Source of the DNA: Verrucomicrobiaceae bacterium
GTDB lineage: Bacteria > Verrucomicrobiota > Verrucomicrobiia > Verrucomicrobiales > Verrucomicrobiaceae
Assembly (NCBI GenBank): GCA_947458455.1
Contig: CANGYJ010000002.1
Coordinates: 496,001-560,000, forward strand
Reading direction: 5' to 3'
Length of the DNA stretch: 64,000 nucleotides
In this document: piece after piece, positions 8,905 through 40,461 of the stretch
Numbering within the stretch: position 1 is the stretch's first letter
Layout of the letters: each line of letters starts with the position of its first letter
Notes under the pieces: model-generated
Told to the model about the DNA's origin: nothing
Databases searched by the model: none
The model's input: only the letters and a program-made list of their open reading frames with translations
Position numbers and translations under genes: made by a program

Positions 8905-9978
8905 TCACCTCTCGTAAATCGGTAGGAAGCGGTAGTTCAAAGCCACGGCGAGCAGGGACATGCCCGTCTGGTAAGCATCGCCGAAGCCGCCGTCTTCGCC
9001 TTGGGACTCGGACAGGCTGCGGACGGTGGCGATGTTCCATTTCACCCAGGCATCGTAATCCCCCTGGAAGAGCGATTGAGCCATGTAGTAGCGGAAGTAC
9101 TCTTTGTAGTGGCCCTCCTGGTGCTCCAGCCGCGTGTTGATGTGCTCCAGCGTGGCCTTGTACTCGGGAGTATCCTTCTTCTTGGCCACCGCAGCCACGA
9201 GCGTGGCGATGGCGCTGCGGTTCATCGATTCGCCCATGCCGCCAAAACCACCGCTGTAAGCCACGCTGCCATCTTTGCTGGTGCTGCGGCGCATGTATTC
9301 GAGCGCGGCCTCGATCACCTCGTCACTCACCTCCATGCCGGCATTCCGCGCCGCGAGCAGGCCCATGAGCATCGCGCCGGTGACGGAGGTATCCGCATCG
9401 CGAGCCTCCGGCGAGTAGCGCCAGCCACCCCAGCGATTGTTTTTCTGCGAGGTGCCGCTCAGCCGGATGGCGAGATCGAGCGCCTGCGAGATCGTGCGCA
9501 CGGGCTTTTCACCCTCCCACAGCAGCGCCTCATCCACCGCGCCATAGGCCTCCGACAGCGCCAGCATGGCAAAACCATGGTGATACATGCTGTGCGGGAA
9601 ATAACCGGACTCCTGCTGCGACTTCAAAATGGCCCGCACACTGCGGCGGATGTTTCGCGCATACTTTCCGAAGTTCGGATCATCTCCGCTGGCGAGAAAC
9701 GCCATCACGCAGATGCCGTTCACACCCGGTCCGTCATTGCCGCCCTGCCAGCTTCCCTCGTCATTCTGCTTCGAGGCCAGCCAGGAGAGGCCGCGCTCGT
9801 AGATCGTCTCGACCTCGTGTGGAATCGCGCCGCCGAAGCGAAGGTCCGCTGCATTCGCGGTGAATGACGAAATCAGAATGAGGAATGCCGAAAGAAGCCC
9901 GAAACCCGAATGTCGAAGCTTCCGGCACTCGTCATTCGTCCTTCGCCATTCGTCCTTCCTGCCAAGGGTCGTTCTCAT
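8905..9978 (-). CDS. Exported prenyltransferase/squalene-oxidase-repeat protein
   Basis: 357 residues. After a basic N-region and a hydrophobic core (LLSAFLILISSFTANA, likely cleavage before ADL), repeated alpha/alpha-toroid elements follow: GLSWLASKQNDEGSW, FPHSMYHHGFAMLALSEAYG, GGWRYSPEARDADTSVTGA and GGFGDAYQTGMSLLAVAL. These are the QW-like repeats of the prenyltransferase and squalene oxidase fold. The acidic DxDD catalytic motif of squalene-hopene cyclases is not evident, so enzyme activity on terpenes is doubtful; in PVC bacteria such proteins are usually exported and of unknown role. It is the third gene of a coupled operon: its ATG overlaps the previous stop (ATGA, 9975-9978). The signal peptide is encoded by an intergenic-type repeat (see 9861-9978). 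Confidence 0.8.
   Translation of the reverse strand: MRTTLGRKDEWRRTNDECRKLRHSGFGLLSAFLILISSFTANAADLRFGGAIPHEVETIYERGLSWLASKQNDEGSWQGGNDGPGVNGICVMAFLASGDDPNFGKYARNIRRSVRAILKSQQESGYFPHSMYHHGFAMLALSEAYGAVDEALLWEGEKPVRTISQALDLAIRLSGTSQKNNRWGGWRYSPEARDADTSVTGAMLMGLLAARNAGMEVSDEVIEAALEYMRRSTSKDGSVAYSGGFGGMGESMNRSAIATLVAAVAKKKDTPEYKATLEHINTRLEHQEGHYKEYFRYYMAQSLFQGDYDAWVKWNIATVRSLSESQGEDGGFGDAYQTGMSLLAVALNYRFLPIYER
9861..9978. repeat. GAATG/CATTC word repeat forming the 5' end of the cyclase-fold gene
   Basis: The stretch holds reiterated GAATGACGAA, GAATGAGGAATGCCG and, in the other arm, CATTCGTCCTTCGCCATTCG, arranged as an imperfect inverted repeat centred near 9917 (CGAAGCTTCC). On the minus strand the whole element lies inside the coding sequence and specifies the N-region and hydrophobic core of the signal peptide. 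Confidence 0.75.
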
Positions 9979-12362
9979 TCGTCAAAAACGCCCGCGCCTC
10001 CTTCCGCGTTCTTGTCCTGCTCCAGGCGCTGCTTGTGATAGCTCTCGATGCCTTCCCAGTATTGCAGGGCGTCGGAAAGATCGCGTTCCTGGACGAGCTT
10101 CCATTGGCGTTCGGTGAGGGCGGATTTCAAATCGGCCTCCTTCACGCCAGCGAGAGGAAGCAGGGCGTAGTAGTATTGCAGATGCCAGGAGTGGTTCATG
10201 TAGCGCTCGATGTCCGGCAGGTAGTCATCGAGCACCGTGGAAACGAGCTGATGCACTTTTTTGACCTGCTCCGGCGTGAGGCGGCGGCGGCGGTCGAGCT
10301 CGTTCACGCTCATCGTGGCCATCGCGGCGGTGCGGTAATCTTTGCGGGCATCGAGCACCTTCTTCCAGGCGGCTTGCTCGCTCTCGGAAAGCAGCGTGGT
10401 GATGGTCTCACGCCAGCGATCCTGTGTCTGCGGGCCTTTGCTTTGCGTGTTGTAAGTGGAGCGGGCGAGGTTCGCGAGCGTGGCCTTCACCGTGGCGGAC
10501 GTGGCACGCTCGACCGAGTTCCGCACCCAGCTTTCTACCTGTGTGCGCCATTCCTCCATCGAAGCTTCCACCGCGCCTTTGGCGGCGGTGGTGAGGCGTT
10601 TCACTTTGTCCTCAGGCAGGCTGAGCACGCGTTTCGCATCGTCCACCTTGGCCAGCATGACCTCAAGCAGGCGTTTCCGCTCGTTGACGCCGAGCTGATG
10701 AAGGTGGCGCGAGATTTCCCATTCGATGTCAGGCTTTTCCTCCTCGGGATCGATCTCGCTGGAGGTCACGGTGATGCCGCCGCTGCGGCTGTTGTTTGGC
10801 ACCGTGCTCACGAGTGTCTTCCACTGCTTCATCTGCACGTCATCCAGGATCGTCGTGAGCTGCTTCTCCTCCACCTTCGTGGCGGCGTTGCAAAGCTGGT
10901 AGGCTTGGTAGCTCCAGTACTCCTGCGATTCATCCCGCAGCAGCGGCTCCATCAGCGGGCGCAGCAGGGGCTCCAGGTCGGCACGCTGCTTCACGCTGAG
11001 GGCGAGCGTCTTGTCCATCTCCACCAAGGTGGCCGCGGCGAGGGCACCACTCATGCGTGTCTTCCGCTGGGCAAGGCCCTCCTGCATATTCCGAAGCTCG
11101 TCCTCGCTGAAGAGCTTCTTCAAGCCCTCCGCCCACACTTTTTGCTTGGGCGGCTGATCTTCATCCGTCACGCCAAAGTAGTAGTTCTTGCGTGATTTAC
11201 GGTCCGCCGTGGACCAGCCCTGGATGGTCTTGATCCACTGCTTCTTCGCCGCCGCGATGCTCGCGGTCACCGCCTGCATTCCAAGGGCTTCGAGCTGTTT
11301 TTTGCGCTCATCATCGAGATTCAGGCCGCTCACATAGCTGTCCACCTCGCGACCGATGAGCTCCTCCATCTGCATCTGCGCCTGCGCCTCGCTCGGCTTG
11401 AGCGAATCGACCAGATCCGCCTCTTCTTTGGCCTTCTGCTCCGCCACGAGCTGCTGCCACTGCTTCACCGGTTCCGCACCGAGGAGGCTCGTGATGACCT
11501 CCGCCCATTTCTTTTCGATATCCGTGCCCTTCGGTCGCACAAAACGTGTGGCGAAGCTATTGCCCTGACCCATCGCCACGAGACGCTGCTCTTCTGGCAG
11601 TGACGAGAGCAAATCCAAACCCGCGACCAACTCGGAGGCCACATGCTCATCGACGAGCTTCTTCGCGGCGTTGAAGAGTTCGTCCACCTTCGGCTGCTCG
11701 AGTTTCAATTCCTTTCTCAAGCTCTCGATGAGCAGGCGAAGCTCCTCATCCATCGGCACGCGACCCGTGCTGGCCCAGCGTTCGAGGAAGGACTGCATCT
11801 CTTCCTTCACCTCCGCCCGCTGCTTCGCCCGGATGGCGATGGCTTTTTCGCCGCGCTCAGCGCCGAGATGCTTCTTCACGAGTTCCTGCCACGCCGGCGA
11901 GAGGTCCGGCAAGGTCCAGCCCTCGACCGTGAGGCGCTTCTCCGCCTGATCCATTTTCCACTGGGCGATGCGCCGCGCTGCGGAGGCATCATCCGTGTAG
12001 CTGACGATGTAAAAACGCAGCGATTCGATGTAGCGCGGCCGCCACGCCTTGATCGCCGCTTCGATCAAAGGCTCCGCGTCCTTCAAAAGCGCCGCCTTTT
12101 CCGCCGGCGTGATCTTCACCTCCTGCTCCGCCAGCTCCAGCACCCATTCCAACTGCCGCGTGAGCTGCTCCTTCTTTCCCGCAAAGCCATCCTCCGCCAG
12201 CTTCTCCAGCGCCTTCTCCGAATCCGGCCCGAGGGATTTCTTGGACTCCGCCCGCGTGTTGAAGGGCGCGGCGTGAATGCCGAATGCCGAATGCAGAATG
12301 CAGAATGCGGCTGCCAGCATGCGCCAGCGGCCATTCGTCATTCGCCATTCGCCATTCCTCAT
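9975..12362 (-). CDS. Large exported helical protein, unknown function
   Basis: 795 residues. A signal peptide is visible (MLAAAFCILHSAFGIHA before APF); translation may start at 12362, or at the in-frame ATG at 12320 immediately before the hydrophobic core. The mature protein is almost entirely helical, charged and rich in Lys/Glu. It carries many blocks of the type L-x-x-E/D-Q-x-x-x-L/W (LTPEQVKKVHQLV, LSVKQRADLEPLL, LDDERKKQLEAL, LLSESEQAAWKKVL, LTERQWKLVQ), reminiscent of the LTxxQ repeats of CpxP/Spy periplasmic proteins. I recognise no enzyme motif. It is the second gene of an operon with four-base stop/start overlaps on both sides, so it probably works with the DUF4175-like membrane protein in the envelope (inference). 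Confidence 0.75.
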   Translation of the reverse strand: MRNGEWRMTNGRWRMLAAAFCILHSAFGIHAAPFNTRAESKKSLGPDSEKALEKLAEDGFAGKKEQLTRQLEWVLELAEQEVKITPAEKAALLKDAEPLIEAAIKAWRPRYIESLRFYIVSYTDDASAARRIAQWKMDQAEKRLTVEGWTLPDLSPAWQELVKKHLGAERGEKAIAIRAKQRAEVKEEMQSFLERWASTGRVPMDEELRLLIESLRKELKLEQPKVDELFNAAKKLVDEHVASELVAGLDLLSSLPEEQRLVAMGQGNSFATRFVRPKGTDIEKKWAEVITSLLGAEPVKQWQQLVAEQKAKEEADLVDSLKPSEAQAQMQMEELIGREVDSYVSGLNLDDERKKQLEALGMQAVTASIAAAKKQWIKTIQGWSTADRKSRKNYYFGVTDEDQPPKQKVWAEGLKKLFSEDELRNMQEGLAQRKTRMSGALAAATLVEMDKTLALSVKQRADLEPLLRPLMEPLLRDESQEYWSYQAYQLCNAATKVEEKQLTTILDDVQMKQWKTLVSTVPNNSRSGGITVTSSEIDPEEEKPDIEWEISRHLHQLGVNERKRLLEVMLAKVDDAKRVLSLPEDKVKRLTTAAKGAVEASMEEWRTQVESWVRNSVERATSATVKATLANLARSTYNTQSKGPQTQDRWRETITTLLSESEQAAWKKVLDARKDYRTAAMATMSVNELDRRRRLTPEQVKKVHQLVSTVLDDYLPDIERYMNHSWHLQYYYALLPLAGVKEADLKSALTERQWKLVQERDLSDALQYWEGIESYHKQRLEQDKNAEGGAGVFDE

Positions 12363-12366
12363 TTCG
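12275..12366. repeat. GAATGC/CATTCG word repeat forming the 5' end of the helical protein gene
   Basis: The left arm 12275-12308 has five GAATGC-type units in a row; the right arm from 12332 has four CATTCG-type units. The arms are mutually complementary and enclose about 23 bp. Read on the minus strand the element encodes the first 33 or so residues, including the hydrophobic signal-peptide core. Confidence 0.8.
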
Positions 12367-15300
12367 TTTCCTCCAGCTTGTTGAAGTAAGCATCCAGGCC
12401 GGTCTTGAATTCCTCTGGCAGCTCGCGGCCAGCCTTGCCCGTGGCCTGGCCGACGGGGCGGGCATCGACATTCGTGGCGGCATCGCCGCCTTCGCCGAGA
12501 TCCGCCAAGGCAGCGAGACCCGTCGAGGCGGCGCTGCCACCGCCGCTGGGATTGCTGCCGCCACCGCCGCCGCCTTTGGGATTGGGGCGCTTGGCTTGGA
12601 GGAGGAGTTCGATGGCTTCCGTCTCGGCCGCGATGGCGGGAGCGCCGGTTTCGGGCTTGTCGAGAAGGCTGCCGGCCTCATCCATCACCTGCATGACGGC
12701 ATCGAGCAGCTTCAGCTCCTTGCCGAACTTCTCGTTGGCCGAAGGCAGGTGCAAAATGTCATCGAAAGCGCCGCGCACATTCAGGCGGATGCCGAACTGC
12801 TTGGAGGCGAGGTCGTTGGATTGCTTCGCGTAAACCATCGTATCGAGCGCGGGCTTCGCGTTCTCGGCCTCGCGGGTCTCATCGCGCAGCTTCATCTCAT
12901 CGCGCAGGGCTTTCATCACTTTGAGGACGATCTCCGGCGGCAGGCTGTCTGAGCTGCACGAGCTGCAGGCCTTGCACTCGCTGGCGGCCACCATCTCCTC
13001 CGCCCAGCGGTCGAGCGTATCCGCCCAGAATTCCGCGCCGGCCATGCTGCTGCCGCTGAGATTCACCGCCGCCTGATCGCCGAGCGTGTGCAGCGCCTTC
13101 ACGACCTGCGTTTCCTTCATCTGGCCGATGACGGTCTTGAAATGCATCTCCGGCTTGCGGGCATAGTAGGCTTCGAGATCGCTCTGGATGACACGCACGG
13201 TCTCGCTCTGCCCTTTTTCATGCTCGGCGATGCTCGCGGCTTCTTTGACGGGCTGTTTTTCCAAACCGAAGGCACTGAGCGTCTTCGTGTTCAAATCCTT
13301 CGCGGCGACCAATTGATCGCGTGAGGCTTTTTTGAGCCGCTTCACGAAGGTGCTGGCCTCCAAACTCGCCAAAACGGCGGCGAGCTCGTCCGAGACCTTC
13401 GCGAACTCCGCGAGCAGCAATTCCTGCTCCTCGATGGCCTCATCCATTTTCTGCTGCACGGGTGTTTGCGGCTGCTCCTCGGCTTTTTTGCCTTCTTTCG
13501 GTGCTGCGGCGGCCATCTGCGTCGTCGGCAATTTCAGCGTGCTGGGCTTTGGCGGTGCCGGTTTGGCATTCGGATCGTTTTTGGCTTCAGCAGGCTTGCT
13601 CATCGAAGCTTCACGATCCGTGAGGCTGGGCATGTTGGGCTTCTTGGGGGCTTCGTTCGCGGGTTGTGGAGTGGAGGGTTTTTGACTTTGTTGACCCGAT
13701 TGACCGGATTGACTGGGCTGGCTTTTTGCTCCGGCGCTTTGTTTGAGCAAATCCGCGACGCTCGGCATTTTCTTGGATGCGATGTCCTGGAGTGATTTGA
13801 GCATCGTGGCCCACGATTCGAGGCGTTGGGCATCAAACTCGTCATTGCGGGTGGCTTGCTCGACGAGGCTGCGGCCGCTTTGATTGAGCGCTCCGAGTCG
13901 TGCGGCATTCGCGGTCTCGGAACTGGCTTGCTGGGCGATCTTGCGACGGTTCTCGGGTCGGTCGAGCTCGGCGGCATTCATCTGGCGAAGCTCGCGATTC
14001 GTGGCGTGGAGCTGCTGCTCGCGTTCGTAGGTCTCGCGGGCGGATTCGAGCCACTTGCCGAACTGTTCGGTGAGCCACAGGGCATGATCGGTCTTGTTGA
14101 GAATCTGAAGCTGGAAAGAGCTGGAGTAGGCGCGTTTACGGCCTGGCAGGTAATCTTCGGCCCAGGCACGAATTTCGAGCGTTTGTGGTGCCACGCCATC
14201 GCGGATGGCGGAGAAGGTGACCTTGGCGTTGAGGGTCTTTTTCTCCGGTTCACCGGCGGCGGCGATCTTGTCGCCCTTCGTCGAATCATCATTCACGCTG
14301 CGCCATTCAAGGCCGACGCGTTGAATGCCGAAGTCATCCTGCGCATCGACTTCAAAGGCGAGGACTTCCGTGTCCAAAACGACCTGCTCCGGCGATTCGC
14401 GACGCGCGGCCAGCCTCGGTGCTTCGTCTTCCACGGCTTGCAGACGCAGCACGAGCGGCTCGCGAGGCTCCAGACCCTCGCGATCCTTCCACGTCATGGT
14501 TTTTTCCGCGTCAGCGGCGAGTTCGCTGAAGGTGGTGGTCATCTTGTCGCCAGAAACGGACTGCGTTTGGCCATCAAGCGTGGCGCTGGCCAGTTCGCGG
14601 CTCGCGGTGGCCTCGATGGAGGCCAAAGCGCCTTTCAGCACGCTCACGGAACCGCCGCGCACCTCGATCACCGGCTGCGTTTGGTATTTCAGATACGCGG
14701 GCAGCTTTGTGCAAATGGCGAGCGTCGTGAGCTCTGGACGCGCCCGTGGCAGCACGGCGATTTCTTCACGCACATCACCGAGCGAGAGCTTCAACGCCGT
14801 ATCATTCTTCTGCGGCGGCAGCGCCAGCACATACGCGCCGTCTTTGAGCGTGCTCTGAATGATCGGCTGGCCTTCGATGCTGGCCTTCGCGACCTGCGGT
14901 GACCATTGAGTGCCTTTGTCGAGCTTCACCGTGAGCTTCACCGGCTCCGCCAGCGGCACGACGAGCTTTTTGGGCAGCGCTTCAATGCGGGCAAAGGTGA
15001 AGCGCTCGATGTTCTTCCAGGGCATCGCCCAGCGCTGCGCGGCATTCCACGCGGCCTCCGGCACACCCAAGGCTGCCGCGAGGGTGAGCAATGCTGCACC
15101 AGCCAGCGCCCAAGCCCAGCGTGCATGCCGTGCCTCGGGGACGGCATGCGTGAAATCCTTGTCCTTCACGGCCTCCGCCGCCTGCGCCATGGCCGCCTGC
15201 ACCAGCCGCTCGCTGCGACTGGCGTCCTCATGCCGTGAAAGCTCCACGATGCCGAGCAATTGATCCCCGAGCCGGGGAAAGGTGCGCTTCAACAGCCGCG

Positions 15301-15568
15301 CGGCATCTTCCAACTGCCGCTGCCGCCACACCCAGCGATGCCATTTGAGCGGCAAACCGAGCCCCAGCACCGCCGAACCACCAAGCATGAGCGTCCAGCG
15401 CATCCACGAGGGCGTTTCCATCACGCGATCCAAAACAAAGAGCACCAGCCATGAGCCGAGCAAGCCCACCAGGCCGGCGAGGATGCCCTCCAAAACCTTC
15501 ACTACCCAAACGCGGCGGCGAAAGTCCGCGAGCTTGGACTCCAGGATCGGAGGAAGGGCCGTTTTCAT
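12359..15568 (-). CDS. DUF4175-like large membrane protein
   Basis: 1069 residues. Two hydrophobic segments near residues 25-50 and 58-75 (ILAGLVGLLGSWLVLFVLD, LMLGGSAVLGLGL) and a third near 150-170 anchor the protein. A long exported region with beta-sandwich stretches follows (DDFGIQRVGLEWRS is characteristic of the DUF4175 family of PVC bacteria and proteobacteria). The C-terminal half is low in complexity, rich in Pro/Lys/Ala and coiled, then contains ECKACSSCSSD, a CxxCxxC cluster that could bind metal or form disulfides. It is the first gene of the operon and is coupled by ATGA to the helical protein gene. Such proteins often sit beside MoxR/BatA-type genes; none are visible here. Function unknown, probably an envelope scaffold. 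Confidence 0.75.
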   Translation of the reverse strand: MKTALPPILESKLADFRRRVWVVKVLEGILAGLVGLLGSWLVLFVLDRVMETPSWMRWTLMLGGSAVLGLGLPLKWHRWVWRQRQLEDAARLLKRTFPRLGDQLLGIVELSRHEDASRSERLVQAAMAQAAEAVKDKDFTHAVPEARHARWAWALAGAALLTLAAALGVPEAAWNAAQRWAMPWKNIERFTFARIEALPKKLVVPLAEPVKLTVKLDKGTQWSPQVAKASIEGQPIIQSTLKDGAYVLALPPQKNDTALKLSLGDVREEIAVLPRARPELTTLAICTKLPAYLKYQTQPVIEVRGGSVSVLKGALASIEATASRELASATLDGQTQSVSGDKMTTTFSELAADAEKTMTWKDREGLEPREPLVLRLQAVEDEAPRLAARRESPEQVVLDTEVLAFEVDAQDDFGIQRVGLEWRSVNDDSTKGDKIAAAGEPEKKTLNAKVTFSAIRDGVAPQTLEIRAWAEDYLPGRKRAYSSSFQLQILNKTDHALWLTEQFGKWLESARETYEREQQLHATNRELRQMNAAELDRPENRRKIAQQASSETANAARLGALNQSGRSLVEQATRNDEFDAQRLESWATMLKSLQDIASKKMPSVADLLKQSAGAKSQPSQSGQSGQQSQKPSTPQPANEAPKKPNMPSLTDREASMSKPAEAKNDPNAKPAPPKPSTLKLPTTQMAAAAPKEGKKAEEQPQTPVQQKMDEAIEEQELLLAEFAKVSDELAAVLASLEASTFVKRLKKASRDQLVAAKDLNTKTLSAFGLEKQPVKEAASIAEHEKGQSETVRVIQSDLEAYYARKPEMHFKTVIGQMKETQVVKALHTLGDQAAVNLSGSSMAGAEFWADTLDRWAEEMVAASECKACSSCSSDSLPPEIVLKVMKALRDEMKLRDETREAENAKPALDTMVYAKQSNDLASKQFGIRLNVRGAFDDILHLPSANEKFGKELKLLDAVMQVMDEAGSLLDKPETGAPAIAAETEAIELLLQAKRPNPKGGGGGGSNPSGGGSAASTGLAALADLGEGGDAATNVDARPVGQATGKAGRELPEEFKTGLDAYFNKLEETK

Positions 15569-36851: not shown

Positions 36852-39770
36852 ATGCGTCCGTTCCTATTGTCGAGTCTTCTAGGCCTTCCGTGGCTTTCCC
36901 TCGTGGCCTTGGATCTCCCTTCCACACCGCCCGTAGAGCCAAAGAACGCCGAGAAGACCTTCCACGTCCTCGACGGCTTTGAGATGCAGCTCATCGCCGC
37001 CGAGCCGCTCGTCACCGATCCCGTCGCCATCACCTACGATGCCGATGGCCGCGCCTACGTGTGCGAGATGAACGATTACCCCTACACCGACAAGGCCGCG
37101 CACAAGCCCAGTCAGGAAAACCCCACGGATGCCCACATCGGCAAAGTGCGCCTGCTCATCGACACCGATGGCGACGGCACCTTCGACAAGGCCACCGTCT
37201 TCGCCGAGGGCCTCTCCTGGCCCACCGGGGCCGCGTGCTGGAAAGGCGGCCTCTTTGTCACCGCCACGCCCGACGTTTGGTATCTCAAAGACACGAATGA
37301 CGACGGCGTGGCCGATGTGCGGCAAAAGGTCTTCACCGGCTTCAAAAAGCTCAACGTGCAGGCCGTCATGAACAACCCCATCTGGGGCCTCGACCACCGC
37401 ATCTACATCGCCGGTGGCAGCAACGGCGGCGAAATCCAGCGCGTGCCCGGCAGCGAGAGCGTCATGCCGCTATCGAAGGACTTCAAACCGCTGCCCATCA
37501 AGCGAAACGACTTCTCCTTCGACCCCAGCACCGGCGATGTGCGCCTCGAAAGCGGCGGCGCACGCTTTGGCAACACCTTCGATGATTGGGGCAACCGCTT
37601 CCTCTGCAACATCCGCAATCCCTGCCAGCACGTCGTCCTGCCGTATCGCTACCTCGCGCGGAATCCCTACCTCGTCGTCCCCAGCGCCCTGAACGACTGC
37701 GCCGAGGCCGGCGACCAGCTCCCCGTCTGGCGCACCAGCCCCGCCGAGCCCTGGCGCGAGTTCCGCGCGAAGCGTTGGGTGCAGGAAGGCAGCCACCTGC
37801 CAAAAAGCGAACTCGTCGGTGCCGGTGTCGTCACTTCATCGAGCGGCATCACCGTCTATCGCGGCGATGCGTATCCGAAAGAGTATCGCGACTTCGCCTT
37901 CGTCGCCGACGTGGCCGGGAATCTCTTCTACCGCATGAAGCTCGTCCCCGACGGTGTCACCTTCAAAGCCGTGCAGGTCGATGGAAACAAGAACTTCTGC
38001 ACCAGCGACGACCTCTGGTTCCGCCCCGTGAATTTCGTCAACGCCCCCGACGGCTGCCTCCACATCTGCGACATGTATCGCGAAGTCATCGAGCACCCCT
38101 GGAGCATCCCCGACGACATCCACACCGCCGTCGATCTTCTCCGCGGCCGCGACAAAGGCCGTATCTGGCGTTTAGCGCCGAAGAGTGGTGCAGCCGTCCC
38201 GGCTGCTTCATCACAGGCCAGAGGCCTGCACCACACTCCCAAACTCAGCCTCGCGAGCACCACCGACCTCGTCGCCCTCCTCGACCACCCGAACGCTTGG
38301 CACCGCGAAACCGCCCAGCGCTTGCTGTTTGAGCAGGGCCGGCCTGCTAAAAGAGAAACGCCACAACCATTGCTCCAAGATGCTTTTCAACTCGTCGAAA
38401 AGGCCAAAAAACTGCCTGCGCCCGAAACCTTGGCGTTGATGAGCAAGGCCAGCCATGATCCGTGGTTGGGCGCAGCAGTGCTGAGCATGGACCCAGCGCA
38501 TTTGCTGGAGGTTTGCCATCGCGTGATCAAATCGGACCTTGTGGAGGGTCAGCATTGGAACCCCGATTTTTTGCGTCGCCTGGCTTCCATGACCCTCGCA
38601 GCTTCAAAAACGAAAGAGGAAGCAGCCAAACGACTGTCCTTCTTGCTGGCACCGGAAGTGATCAGTATCCCGCTCCTCTCATCCGACGACAAAGGATTGT
38701 ATGTACAAGAGCACAAGCTGCCGCTTTGGTTTCGGTATGGAGATCACCTCATTATGGGCATGCAGGATGGATTGAGGCCCATGGGGCTTCATTTCGGCGA
38801 GACGACTCACCGGGTGGAATTTGAATACATGGCTCAACAACGCCTGAGATTGTTTCGCACTGGCGCGGTCCATAAAGACCGGCTCGAAACGGAACTGCAA
38901 CTCCTCGCCGCCTTGGTGCCAGCCGATCGAATGATGGAAGCCCTCCAACCAATGTTGTCTCCCTGGCGAGAGCTTTTGGAGCAAGAGACAGCTTTAAAGG
39001 TGCTCGCATCCTTGATCAGCGAAAAAGTGGGAGAGTGGATCGTCGAGGCATTGCCAGGTCTGACTCCCGTGGTTCGTGAACAAGCGGTCACCGCCCTCCT
39101 CTCGCGCACGGACCGCATCGCGAAGCTGCTGGATGCCATCGAGGCGAAGAAGATCACGCCCGCGCAGCTCAGCGTCGCCGCGAAGGCGACGCTGGGGCGG
39201 CAGAAGACCCCTGCGCTGGCGGAACGCATCGCGAAGCTCATCGGCGATGGGTCGTCGGCGAACCGGAAGGAGGTCATCGAGAGGTATCTCACGGCGATGC
39301 TGGGAAGTGATGCAGGCACTCCTGCCCGCAATGAGAGCGTGGTTGCGGGCAAGAGTGCCCGCATCACCGGAGACGCCACTCGCGGCTCCAAAATCTACGA
39401 AACGGCCTGCATGGTCTGCCACAAGTTCGCGGACAAGGGCAACGACGTCGGTCCGCACCTCGGCACGATCAAGGCGTGGACGGCCGAGCAGCTCGTCACG
39501 AACATCCTCGACCCGAATCGCGAGGTCTCGCCGAACTTCGCGCTCTACCTCGTCGAAACGAACGACGGTCGTACCCTCAGCGGCCTCATCGCCAGCGAGA
39601 CGGCGGGCAATCTCACCCTCAAACGCGCCGATGGCGGCACGGACACCGTCCTGCGTAGCGAGATCAAATCCCTCACCAGCCCCGGCATCTCCCTCATGCC
39701 CGAAGGTCTCGAAGCCGCGATCACCCCGCAGCAGATGGCGGATCTCATCGCGTACTTGAAAGCGGAGTAG
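36852..39770 (+). CDS. PVC-type haem-binding dehydrogenase-like exported protein
   Basis: 972 residues with a signal peptide (PFLLSSLLGLPWLSLVA). The first 450 residues form the propeller of the 'membrane-bound dehydrogenase' type (TIGR02604-like): FHVLDGFEMQLIAAEPLVTD, YVCEMNDYPY, RLLIDTDGDGTFDKATVFA, VWYLKDTNDDGVAD, ending with RGRDKGRIWRLAP. A HEAT-like helical region follows, then a C-terminal cytochrome c domain (TIGR02603-like) with CMVCH at residues 853-857 and NREVSPNFALY. It is probably a periplasmic sugar or alcohol dehydrogenase-like protein that passes electrons to haem c. Two palindromic repeats lie inside the coding sequence at domain borders (38185-38234 and 39309-39365), both in frame. 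Confidence 0.88.
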   Translation: MRPFLLSSLLGLPWLSLVALDLPSTPPVEPKNAEKTFHVLDGFEMQLIAAEPLVTDPVAITYDADGRAYVCEMNDYPYTDKAAHKPSQENPTDAHIGKVRLLIDTDGDGTFDKATVFAEGLSWPTGAACWKGGLFVTATPDVWYLKDTNDDGVADVRQKVFTGFKKLNVQAVMNNPIWGLDHRIYIAGGSNGGEIQRVPGSESVMPLSKDFKPLPIKRNDFSFDPSTGDVRLESGGARFGNTFDDWGNRFLCNIRNPCQHVVLPYRYLARNPYLVVPSALNDCAEAGDQLPVWRTSPAEPWREFRAKRWVQEGSHLPKSELVGAGVVTSSSGITVYRGDAYPKEYRDFAFVADVAGNLFYRMKLVPDGVTFKAVQVDGNKNFCTSDDLWFRPVNFVNAPDGCLHICDMYREVIEHPWSIPDDIHTAVDLLRGRDKGRIWRLAPKSGAAVPAASSQARGLHHTPKLSLASTTDLVALLDHPNAWHRETAQRLLFEQGRPAKRETPQPLLQDAFQLVEKAKKLPAPETLALMSKASHDPWLGAAVLSMDPAHLLEVCHRVIKSDLVEGQHWNPDFLRRLASMTLAASKTKEEAAKRLSFLLAPEVISIPLLSSDDKGLYVQEHKLPLWFRYGDHLIMGMQDGLRPMGLHFGETTHRVEFEYMAQQRLRLFRTGAVHKDRLETELQLLAALVPADRMMEALQPMLSPWRELLEQETALKVLASLISEKVGEWIVEALPGLTPVVREQAVTALLSRTDRIAKLLDAIEAKKITPAQLSVAAKATLGRQKTPALAERIAKLIGDGSSANRKEVIERYLTAMLGSDAGTPARNESVVAGKSARITGDATRGSKIYETACMVCHKFADKGNDVGPHLGTIKAWTAEQLVTNILDPNREVSPNFALYLVETNDGRTLSGLIASETAGNLTLKRADGGTDTVLRSEIKSLTSPGISLMPEGLEAAITPQQMADLIAYLKAE
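38185..38234. repeat. In-frame palindromic repeat inside the haem-binding dehydrogenase gene
   Basis: GTGGTGCAG at 38185-38193 is inverted as CTGCACCAC at 38226-38234. Inside are two nested hairpins, CAGCCG/CGGCTG and AGGCC/GGCCT. It encodes SGAAVPAASSQARGLHH, a stretch unlike the surrounding conserved sequence, immediately after the propeller domain. Confidence 0.7.
39309..39365. repeat. Second in-frame palindromic repeat in the same gene
   Basis: Two 23-bp arms (39309-39331 and 39343-39365) are inverted copies with two mismatches and an 11-bp loop; words are GATGCRGGCACTC and TGCCCGCAA. It encodes DAGTPARNESVVAGKSARI, just before the cytochrome c domain. Length is compatible with in-frame insertion. 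Confidence 0.75.
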
Positions 39771-39834
39771 TGGAGTGTTGGAGCAATGGAGTGTTGATTG
39801 GCTCTGAACATCACTCCATCACTCCACGACTCCA
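39771..39834. repeat. TGGAGTG word hairpin between dehydrogenase and LolA-like genes
   Basis: A 23-bp arm at 39771-39793 built from TGGAGTG words is inverted at 39812-39834 with a few mismatches. It starts at the base after the dehydrogenase stop codon. It has no T-run and may act as a processing or weak termination hairpin. Confidence 0.7.
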
Positions 39835-39852
39835 ATACCCCGCCTCACCCGC

Positions 39853-40461
39853 ATGATCCGCCTCGTCCTCTCGCTCTGCCTTCTCACGCTTTCCTGCGCG
39901 GCGCAGGGACTGCCGCCGGTCTTTGAAAAGTGGGCGGCGGACCAGAAGACGGTGGGAAACATCCACGTTACCTTTCAGCAGGTGCGCACCACGCCGGCGC
40001 TGAAGGAGCCGATGAAATCCGAAGGCCGCTTTTGGAAGATGCAGGACGGCCGCTTCCGCTGGGAGCTGGGCAGCCCGCCGAGCACGATCATGATCTTCAA
40101 CGGCGAAAAAGCCCTCCTCCAGGAAGGTAAGGACGCCGCGTGGCAGGAGCTGAACCCCGACGACCGCCGCGCCCGCTCCTGGATCAAGTTTCTCAGTGGT
40201 CGGGAGATGGCCACCGCCTCGCTCACGGCCAATTTCAGCGTCAAAGTCACTCAGCAGGAGGCCAAGTTTGCCACGATCACACTCGTTCCAAAGCCGCTGC
40301 TGGTGAAAAAGCATCTGCGGCAGATCGACATGCAGATCGAGCCCGGCGGCAAACGCATGTACCTCCTCCGCATCATCCAAGGAGATGGCTCCACCCTTTC
40401 GATGACCTTTGGCGAGCCCAAGCCAGCGAAGGCCTCCCTTGAGCTGTTTTTGGCGAAGTAA
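39853..40461 (+). CDS. LolA-like outer membrane lipoprotein carrier protein
   Basis: 202 residues with a signal peptide (RLVLSLCLLTLSCAAQG). The mature part has the LolA/LolB fold pattern: VGNIHVTFQQVRTTPALKEP, a GRFWKMQDGRFRWELGSPP strand set (W-x-x-P-x-x-x-R-W-E in classical LolA), FNGEKALLQEG, and a late LVPKPLLVKKHLRQIDMQIE region. In Gram-negative bacteria LolA carries lipoproteins through the periplasm. It is one of several LolA-like paralogues usually found in such genomes, so a specialised role is possible. It is 82 bp behind the dehydrogenase gene, separated by a word hairpin. Confidence 0.8.
   Translation: MIRLVLSLCLLTLSCAAQGLPPVFEKWAADQKTVGNIHVTFQQVRTTPALKEPMKSEGRFWKMQDGRFRWELGSPPSTIMIFNGEKALLQEGKDAAWQELNPDDRRARSWIKFLSGREMATASLTANFSVKVTQQEAKFATITLVPKPLLVKKHLRQIDMQIEPGGKRMYLLRIIQGDGSTLSMTFGEPKPAKASLELFLAK

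Follow-up and report, generated by a model that had tools for sequence, protein, structure and literature searches.

How does a gene for a probably exported protein come to begin with a run of short inverted repeats, and does that run act as its secretion signal? The question is raised by a locus in a 64,000-nucleotide stretch of contig CANGYJ010000002.1 (positions 496,001 to 560,000; hereafter the window, to which coordinates refer unless another locus is named) from a Prosthecobacter-like bacterium of the Verrucomicrobiaceae. Here a repeat at 12275-12366 occupies the start of a gene on the minus strand (9975-12362) encoding a 795-residue helical protein, as judged from homologue searches and an AlphaFold2 model. 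From sequence comparisons, we consider it very probable that the repeat is an inner-heptad copy of a dispersed palindromic element and acts as the Sec signal peptide of the protein. A preliminary description of the locus had suggested that a mobile or expanding word repeat was recruited as a secretion signal, an interpretation that is supported and seems right in substance.

A word repeat at the start of the 795-residue protein

Read on the minus strand from 12357 to 12275, the element begins with four GAATGNN words, continues through a 24-base loop and ends with five NNCATTC words. On the plus strand, GAATG recurs in exact 7-bp steps at 12275, 12282, 12289, 12296 and 12303, and CATTC at 12332, 12339, 12346 and 12353. 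The exact words bear out the complementary arms of GAATGC and CATTCG units described earlier at this gene start; the unit, however, is 7 bp (GAATGNN / NNCATTC) and not 6. In the direction of the gene, the sequence from 12362 reads ATGAGGAATGGCGAATGGCGAATGACGAATGG...CCGCATTCTGCATTCTGCATTCGGCATTCGGCATTC: the first arm (12332-12357) codes for the charged start RNGEWRMTN, the loop separating the arms (12308-12331) for about GRWRMLAAA, and the second arm (12275-12307) for AFCILHSAFGI(H), most of the hydrophobic core. The minus-strand reading A-F-C-I-L-H-S-A-F-G-I-H in the preliminary description is correct and corresponds to codons 19-30. Adjacent two-word pairs begin at eight positions in the window, of which seven belong to this element and the other is 9876; a first-order Markov simulation yields 0.2 (maximum 2 in 20 runs). 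The minus-strand RNA of the element is predicted to form a single long hairpin (folding energy -43.3 kcal/mol, z -3.2), and 2 of 200 shuffles fold equally well.

The repeat lies inside the gene, directly after its Shine-Dalgarno sequence and ATG. A GGAGG at 12370-12374 precedes the ATG by 7 bases, within the end of the upstream gene (12359-15568, minus strand, 1069 aa), the stop of which overlaps the ATG as ATGA. Because GGAGG and ATGA precede the array-bearing frame, and the next in-frame ATG, GTG or TTG past the array is only at codon 71, the repeat appears to be translated, on what is indirect evidence. There is also an ATG at codon 15, and a start there would keep the CATTC arm as core. 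The start preceding the array is conserved, with GGAGG within 18 bases before it in 18 of the 20 other same-genus homologues (the exceptions being those of genomes G029 and G016) and ATGA in all seven homologues inspected for it; G029 lacks the usual upstream gene end.

The translation, MRNGEWRMTNGRWRMLAAAFCILHSAFGIHA|APF, has the layout of a Sec signal peptide, for which we looked for a positive n-region, a hydrophobic h-region of at least 8 residues and small residues near -3/-1: MRNGEWRMTNGRWR would be the n-region, MLAAAFCILHSAFGI the h-region and HA|AP the cleavage site. The putative signal peptide covers codons 1-31 (12270-12362, minus strand), and cleavage would probably fall after A31 (GIHA|AP, by eye), with I at -3 and A at -1 on inspection only. 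The best 11-residue window of Kyte-Doolittle hydropathy (KD) has a value of 1.88 and starts at residue 15. AlphaFold2 predicts a helical protein (mean predicted local distance difference test score, pLDDT, 81; predicted template modelling score, pTM, 0.60), in which residues 1-32 fall outside the confident part, with a pLDDT below 50, and include a helix predicted at 11-27. The 795-residue protein matches no Pfam family above cut-off, and its model has no PDB fold match at E<=0.001.

N-termini of the homologues are lineage-specific

A protein search of 56 genomes gave matches in 29. For the 21 of these that belong to the same genus, we read the N-termini: in seventeen the signal peptide is short and ordinary (MIKLMLLAIVLTGSGGAQAQ and similar), with best lag-7 scores (7-bp autocorrelation of the signal-peptide DNA) of 0.20-0.37 and KD values of 2.37-3.23. 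Long signal peptides are found in G000 (the genome of the window), G029, G014 and G016, with best lag-7 scores on the DNA of 0.80, 0.77, 0.51 and 0.66 and KD values of 1.88, 2.09, 1.57 and 3.05, respectively; these four form one clade (support 98/98). A fifth member with an array-type N-terminus, MRHDEWRMTNGGWRTLAAAFVILHSALAIHAAPF, is that of G068, read from its record L139. The homologues have a conserved mature part and differ by lineage at the N-terminus, which is of array type in G000, L139 and G029 and of other forms in G014, G016 and the 17 congeners; the array-type N-terminus is shared neither by the 17 congeners outside the clade nor by order-level homologues with visible N-termini. 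Both results agree with what had been proposed.

Over 35 codons the orthologues of G000, G068, G029 and G014 can be aligned with no gap; they carry 9, 7, 4 and 0 words, respectively, and ILHxA is kept. The array of G029 is the second arm only, and G014 has the word-free counterpart. In our reading of this gapless series, the element was recruited once and its words decayed afterwards, in the course of which the core of G014 would have been weakened. The N-terminus of G016 is 7-bp periodic with a different word type (by eye). In G016 there is also a tandem second copy of the 795-aa gene (L042 / L068), diverged (35% identical) and on a long branch.

The element is dispersed in the genome and the genus

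In G000 we found 81 three-word matches, compared with 0 for a reversed-pattern control; they make up 47 elements, 36 of which are intergenic, so the hairpin does recur between genes as had been anticipated. Matches were present in 34 of 39 genomes of a genus sample and in 30 of 145 of a phylum sample. The ends of the element, ATGACGAAACCAGAATG, are conserved (78 matches with up to 2 mismatches, 0 in the control), and ten pairs of inverted ends are spaced 89-141 bp. Among 54 distinct ends in the loci examined, 42 are intergenic, 9 lie at gene ends and 3 near gene starts. Many copies, a mostly intergenic position and conserved inverted ends are the features of a miniature inverted-repeat transposable element, and the family presumably spread by transposition. 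The 12275-12366 copy has the inner heptads, and the conserved ends GACGAAACCA/TGGTTTCGTC are absent from it.

Among the matches listed in G000, G029 (100 of 105, with listed site C60:915 left out) and G013 (100 of 186, from which 31 regions were taken, mainly without arrays near contig ends), there are 135 elements, 109 intergenic and 26 coding. Eighteen of the 26 lie in the first 60 codons, a class that needs 60% of the element inside a called gene, 6 in mid-gene and 2 at the C-terminal end. The 18 compare with an expectation of 16%, the share of first 60 codons in coding sequence as estimated from the window (p = 1e-9; 1e-7 without two doubtful starts). With a looser classification that also admits arrays lying shortly before a start, provided the frame is open, 45 of the 135 elements are at gene starts.

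A second word family (GCGAANN/NNTTCGC) has 22 matches in G011, against 0 in the control, and one each in G000 and G068. No obvious target-site duplication was seen in the flanks inspected by eye. A partner of the type found with IS200 or as REP-associated tyrosine transposase (RAYT; REP, repetitive extragenic palindromic element) was considered: G000 has 12 Y1_Tnp matches, and in 11 stretches around them there are no GAATG/CATTC arms. RAYT-linked REPs of the GTAG/CGTC type, tagged stem-loops of 20-40 bp, were likewise set aside, the present element differing in length and build and being absent from those 11 stretches around the Y1_Tnp matches. Several of the Y1_Tnp matches are in open frames of 240-390 aa, and two of the flanking stretches hold other 7-bp periodic sequence.

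One-armed tandem arrays also occur, outside called genes, at L076 2612-2665 (8 words), L090 2642-2744 (15 words) and L104 2584-2658 (11 words, near a contig end), and because they exist, slippage of words probably happens. Elsewhere in the window, at 39760-39850, another palindrome with longer words (GGAGTGTTGGAGC.../CATCACTCCATCACTCCA) lies just before a plus-strand gene, 39853-40461, whose start reads MIRLVLSLCLLTLSCA; autocorrelation at 39808-39850 gives a period of 8.

Similar turnover at the neighbouring genes

The neighbouring gene, 8905-9978 (minus strand), carries DUF6288 above the Pfam cut-off and has a repeat-derived N-terminus, MRTTLGRKDEWRRTNDECRKLRHSGFGLLSAFLILISSFTANAAD. Within its start, at 9862-9951 (minus strand), is a second element, absent from the preliminary description, with one conserved end (1 mismatch) that reads FLILISSF. 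The N-termini of 24 genus orthologues (70-92% identical) differ among species groups. With word types assigned by eye, at least three GAATG/CATTC words are present in the orthologues of G015, G028, G062, G013, G031, G032, G012 and G001, as in G000; peptides of the GCGAANN/TTCGCNN type (ALCPSPFALRA) in those of G011, G058, G008, G004 and G026; the TCAGTGC/GCACTGA type in G068; a mixed form in G029; and ordinary N-termini in others. Several of the GAATG-type orthologues group in the tree and probably go back to one shared event. When 50 of 80 DUF6288 loci, out of 261 relatives, were tested, the lag-7 score exceeded 0.62 in 10 of the 50 orthologues, and in 0 of 50 at lags 8 and 5 (Fisher p = 0.001).

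The next gene after DUF6288 is matched in 18 of 20 loci checked, and 13 of the 18 matches open with MNAK or MNAR, after which comes an ordinary signal peptide. In L151 this gene starts MNAKRTLIAFALSSVLGHAAELHW, its ATG overlapping the DUF6288 end. In L155, whose matched part shares 84.8% identity with L151, there is a palindromic element ~25 bases past the DUF6288 stop, and both of its conserved ends are present (up to 2 mismatches). Translation from the old ATG would now meet a stop after ten codons, whereas the open frame leading into the mature part can begin within a GAATGAC word belonging to the element, giving ...GIHSSFVILISSLIVLFCSSLSAAELHW (by eye). A separate array is present at this gene in L153 (MTNPTPATN...LHSSFAIRHSSIFTTFVLLLS), and L152 may have a decayed one. 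Replacement of an original signal peptide, raised as a possibility in the preliminary description, is seen most directly in L151 versus L155 and is suggested for gene 9975-12362 by the tree, and the conserved inverted ends together with the L155 insertion speak for the mobility it ascribed to the word repeat. At three consecutive genes, then, the N-terminus is repeat-derived in some species and ordinary in others.

Arrays at other gene starts

Most genes with an array in their first 60 codons have hydrophobic N-termini. An 11-residue window with KD of at least 1.8 is found in the first 65 residues of 16 of the 18 array starts, compared with 41% of 460 array-free genes (p = 3.5e-5), and in the first 50 residues of 15 of 18, compared with 38.5% (p = 1.3e-4); the orthologous pairs window/L040 and L088/L235 are both counted in the 18, as they are in the linker test described below. 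The array supplies all 11 residues of the best window in both window genes, in L221 and in L100 (where the value is only 1.29 in the first 50), and 8 of 11 in L040, L297 and L248.

Pfam assigns ten array-start proteins to four sulfatases, a SASA esterase, a cytochrome c, a PSCyt1/WD40 protein, an N_methyl prepilin, a sensor kinase and one protein without a family. Five distinct sulfatases, 26-40% mutually identical, have common SSF.I..SSF-like cores, and one of them has a 91% identical orthologue; the sulfatases L325 and L235 were identified by BLAST only. The shared cores therefore point to repeated recruitment or to DNA exchange among sulfatases. We considered the loss of histidine from the core as evidence for selection and rejected it, ILVSSF/ILISSF being the element's own conserved end (TGGTTTCGTC) and not mutated CATTC words.

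L325 and L335 are further array-start cases outside the 18. At L335 1500-1740, a full element lies directly 5' of a 408-aa gene, and in the open frame MPFVIRASSLIRHSPFWFRHSAASLALILSTALSAAA the element forms the n-region and later sequence the core (by eye). Prepilin-like leaders (RRGFTLIE, SGFTLVE, QRGSALIAVFW) with arrays in the pre-cleavage part occur in G000, G029 and G013, at L100 2504-2624 (N_methyl by Pfam), L220 1983-2767, L100 4712-4813, L250 and L286.

Coding properties of the words

Whichever frame is read, a perfect array of 7-bp words encodes one and the same cyclic heptapeptide. For NNCATTC none of the 16 linkers produces a stop, and those of its peptides that were tested (ILHSAFC, IPHSSFL, IRHSSFV and others) have a mean KD of -0.14 to 1.63. 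GAATGNN encodes polar, charged peptides and an ATG, with 8 of the 16 linkers giving a stop in some frame. The order GAATG then CATTC holds in 41 of 42 two-arm elements, and because the arms are inverted, either strand reads a polar arm followed by a non-polar one. With a largely frame-independent reading, a stop-free CATTC arm and inverted arms, an element at the start of a secreted gene can take over or complete its signal peptide. In the mechanism we propose, an element of 7-bp words would insert in frame behind the start codon and ahead of the mature part, its GAATG arm would code for the charged n-region and its CATTC arm for most of the hydrophobic core, and the recruited element would then be kept at the protein level while its DNA words decay.

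Weighing the alternatives

Several observations weigh against the recruitment of the element as a signal peptide. The core is weak here (KD 1.88) and in G014 (1.57) in comparison with the 17 ordinary homologues (2.37-3.23), and hydropathy is itself a crude stand-in for signal-peptide prediction. The array gives 2-5 residues of the best window in seven genes (sulfatases, the SASA esterase L084 and L261) and none in four (two prepilins, L242 and L259), and because its share varies in this way, outside the window genes the array often completes a core rather than being its sole maker: in the window genes it makes the core, and in the sulfatases it mostly completes the core's end. Linkers coding for arginine at the critical phase occur in 4 of 14 cases, compared with 268 of 390 in other elements (p = 0.003), yet the deficit is not significant against other phases of the same genes (13/28, p = 0.33); prepilin leaders account for two of the four cases and doubtful starts (L248, L259) for the other two, and the 0 of 10 that remain without them is a post hoc figure. 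The classification of elements rests on a home-made gene finder. A scan for period 7 that was not aimed at arrays, covering 813 kb of DUF6288 loci and the window, returned only 8 regions (4 N-terminal, 3 intergenic and 1 mid-gene; one for period 8, none for periods 5, 10 and 11), and it adds little because all four N-terminal regions are in the same three-gene cluster. Along the gapless series, strictly speaking, words could have been gained instead of lost.

An ordinary signal peptide might instead have turned repetitive in place by local 7-bp slippage, with no insertion. This would suit a copy that lacks the conserved ends GACGAAACCA of other elements, the probable slippage in the one-armed tandem arrays and the gapless alignment of the array-free G014 orthologue. 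However, slippage alone makes no inverted second arm, and here both inverted arms stand in the usual order; the second gene downstream, moreover, shows an insertion with both conserved ends. We regard an origin in place as unlikely.

Less likely again is that the extension is a neutral passenger, translated on a protein that is not exported or contributing nothing to export. No Pfam or PDB match gives the protein a function, and the arrays of several other genes contribute just a portion of the core or fall beyond it. Against this, the 17 ordinary-type homologues are hydrophobic at the same N-terminal place, ILHxA is kept in G014 despite the lost words, and the array starts are mostly on genes with hydrophobic N-termini. 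An annotation artefact, with the element in a 5' untranslated region and translation from a downstream start, as a published REP survey warns for many palindromes at starts of open reading frames (ORFs), the translation of which it doubts (PMC3733652), is highly improbable: it would fit the genes behind L081 and L095, cytosolic-looking by eye, which have the element upstream, just before a following start codon, and L243, L084 and L221, which have a possible start codon soon past the array, but in gene 9975-12362 the ribosome-binding sequence and ATGA stand before the array-bearing frame and the next start is 71 codons in, and three of the four Pfam-scanned sulfatases (L080, L088 and L266) have no start codon between the array and the domain start, residue 22.

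We therefore retain recruitment of the dispersed element as the reading of this locus.

Relation to known elements

This kind of event is already known. In Yersinia, the RU-2 element is part of the predicted signal peptide of YPO1552 (Delihas 2007, PMC2759123; reviewed in PMC2229807), and for YPO1552, one of several fusions with the enterobacterial repeats RU-1, RU-2 and RU-3, the signal peptides of homologues in other genera are likewise unrelated. The enterobacterial case involves a 168-bp element and mainly one signal-peptide gene, whereas here many genes are affected by arrays of 7-bp words, which come in more than one family and have turned over repeatedly at the same loci. Rickettsia palindromic elements are similarly found in frame within protein genes, where they are tolerated, but the review places them in 19 reading frames of varied proteins (PMC2229807), in contrast to the concentration of coding elements in the first 60 codons seen here. 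GTAG- and CGTC-tagged REPs are also dispersed short palindromes, some at ORF starts, and no transposase is reported beside the CGTC elements (PMC3733652); they are tagged stem-loops of 20-40 bp, unlike the 89-141 bp palindromes (ten measured) of 7-bp words. The TAACTGA heptanucleotide repeats of Beggiatoaceae and cyanobacteria share 7-bp words and a repeating open-strand peptide, LSVISYQ (PMC4679880), but they are direct, with inverted ones nearly absent, and the term 'signal peptide' does not appear in the main text of that paper. In the open-licence literature, judged by title and start of abstract, we found no paper treating palindromes of 7-bp words as signal peptides, and a search with the words as literal strings returned only papers unrelated by title. 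Relative to that literature, what appears new is the 7-bp-word architecture, the number of genes and the recurrent overwriting of signal peptides at the same genes.

Signal peptides change quickly in evolution, and where they came from can rarely be seen; in this case a recognisable dispersed repeat would have supplied the material, and living relatives display the likely steps, from an intergenic element through insertion at a start and takeover to loss of words with part of the core kept. This offers an explanation other than annotation error for odd N-termini such as MTNDEWRM...RHSSFVILSSF, and the coding properties of the words give a simple reason why a palindrome built from them would be preadapted as a signal peptide. 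Whether inverted arrays of 7-bp words are, more generally, strand-independent and largely frame-independent signal-peptide modules that have repeatedly overwritten or completed the signal peptides of the same genes is, on present comparisons, an evenly balanced proposition; the genus has more than one word family, with GAATGNN/NNCATTC and GCGAANN/NNTTCGC dispersed and TCAGTGC/GCACTGA in one gene. If it is true, signal peptides in these bacteria would turn over by repeat insertion, and not by point mutation alone.
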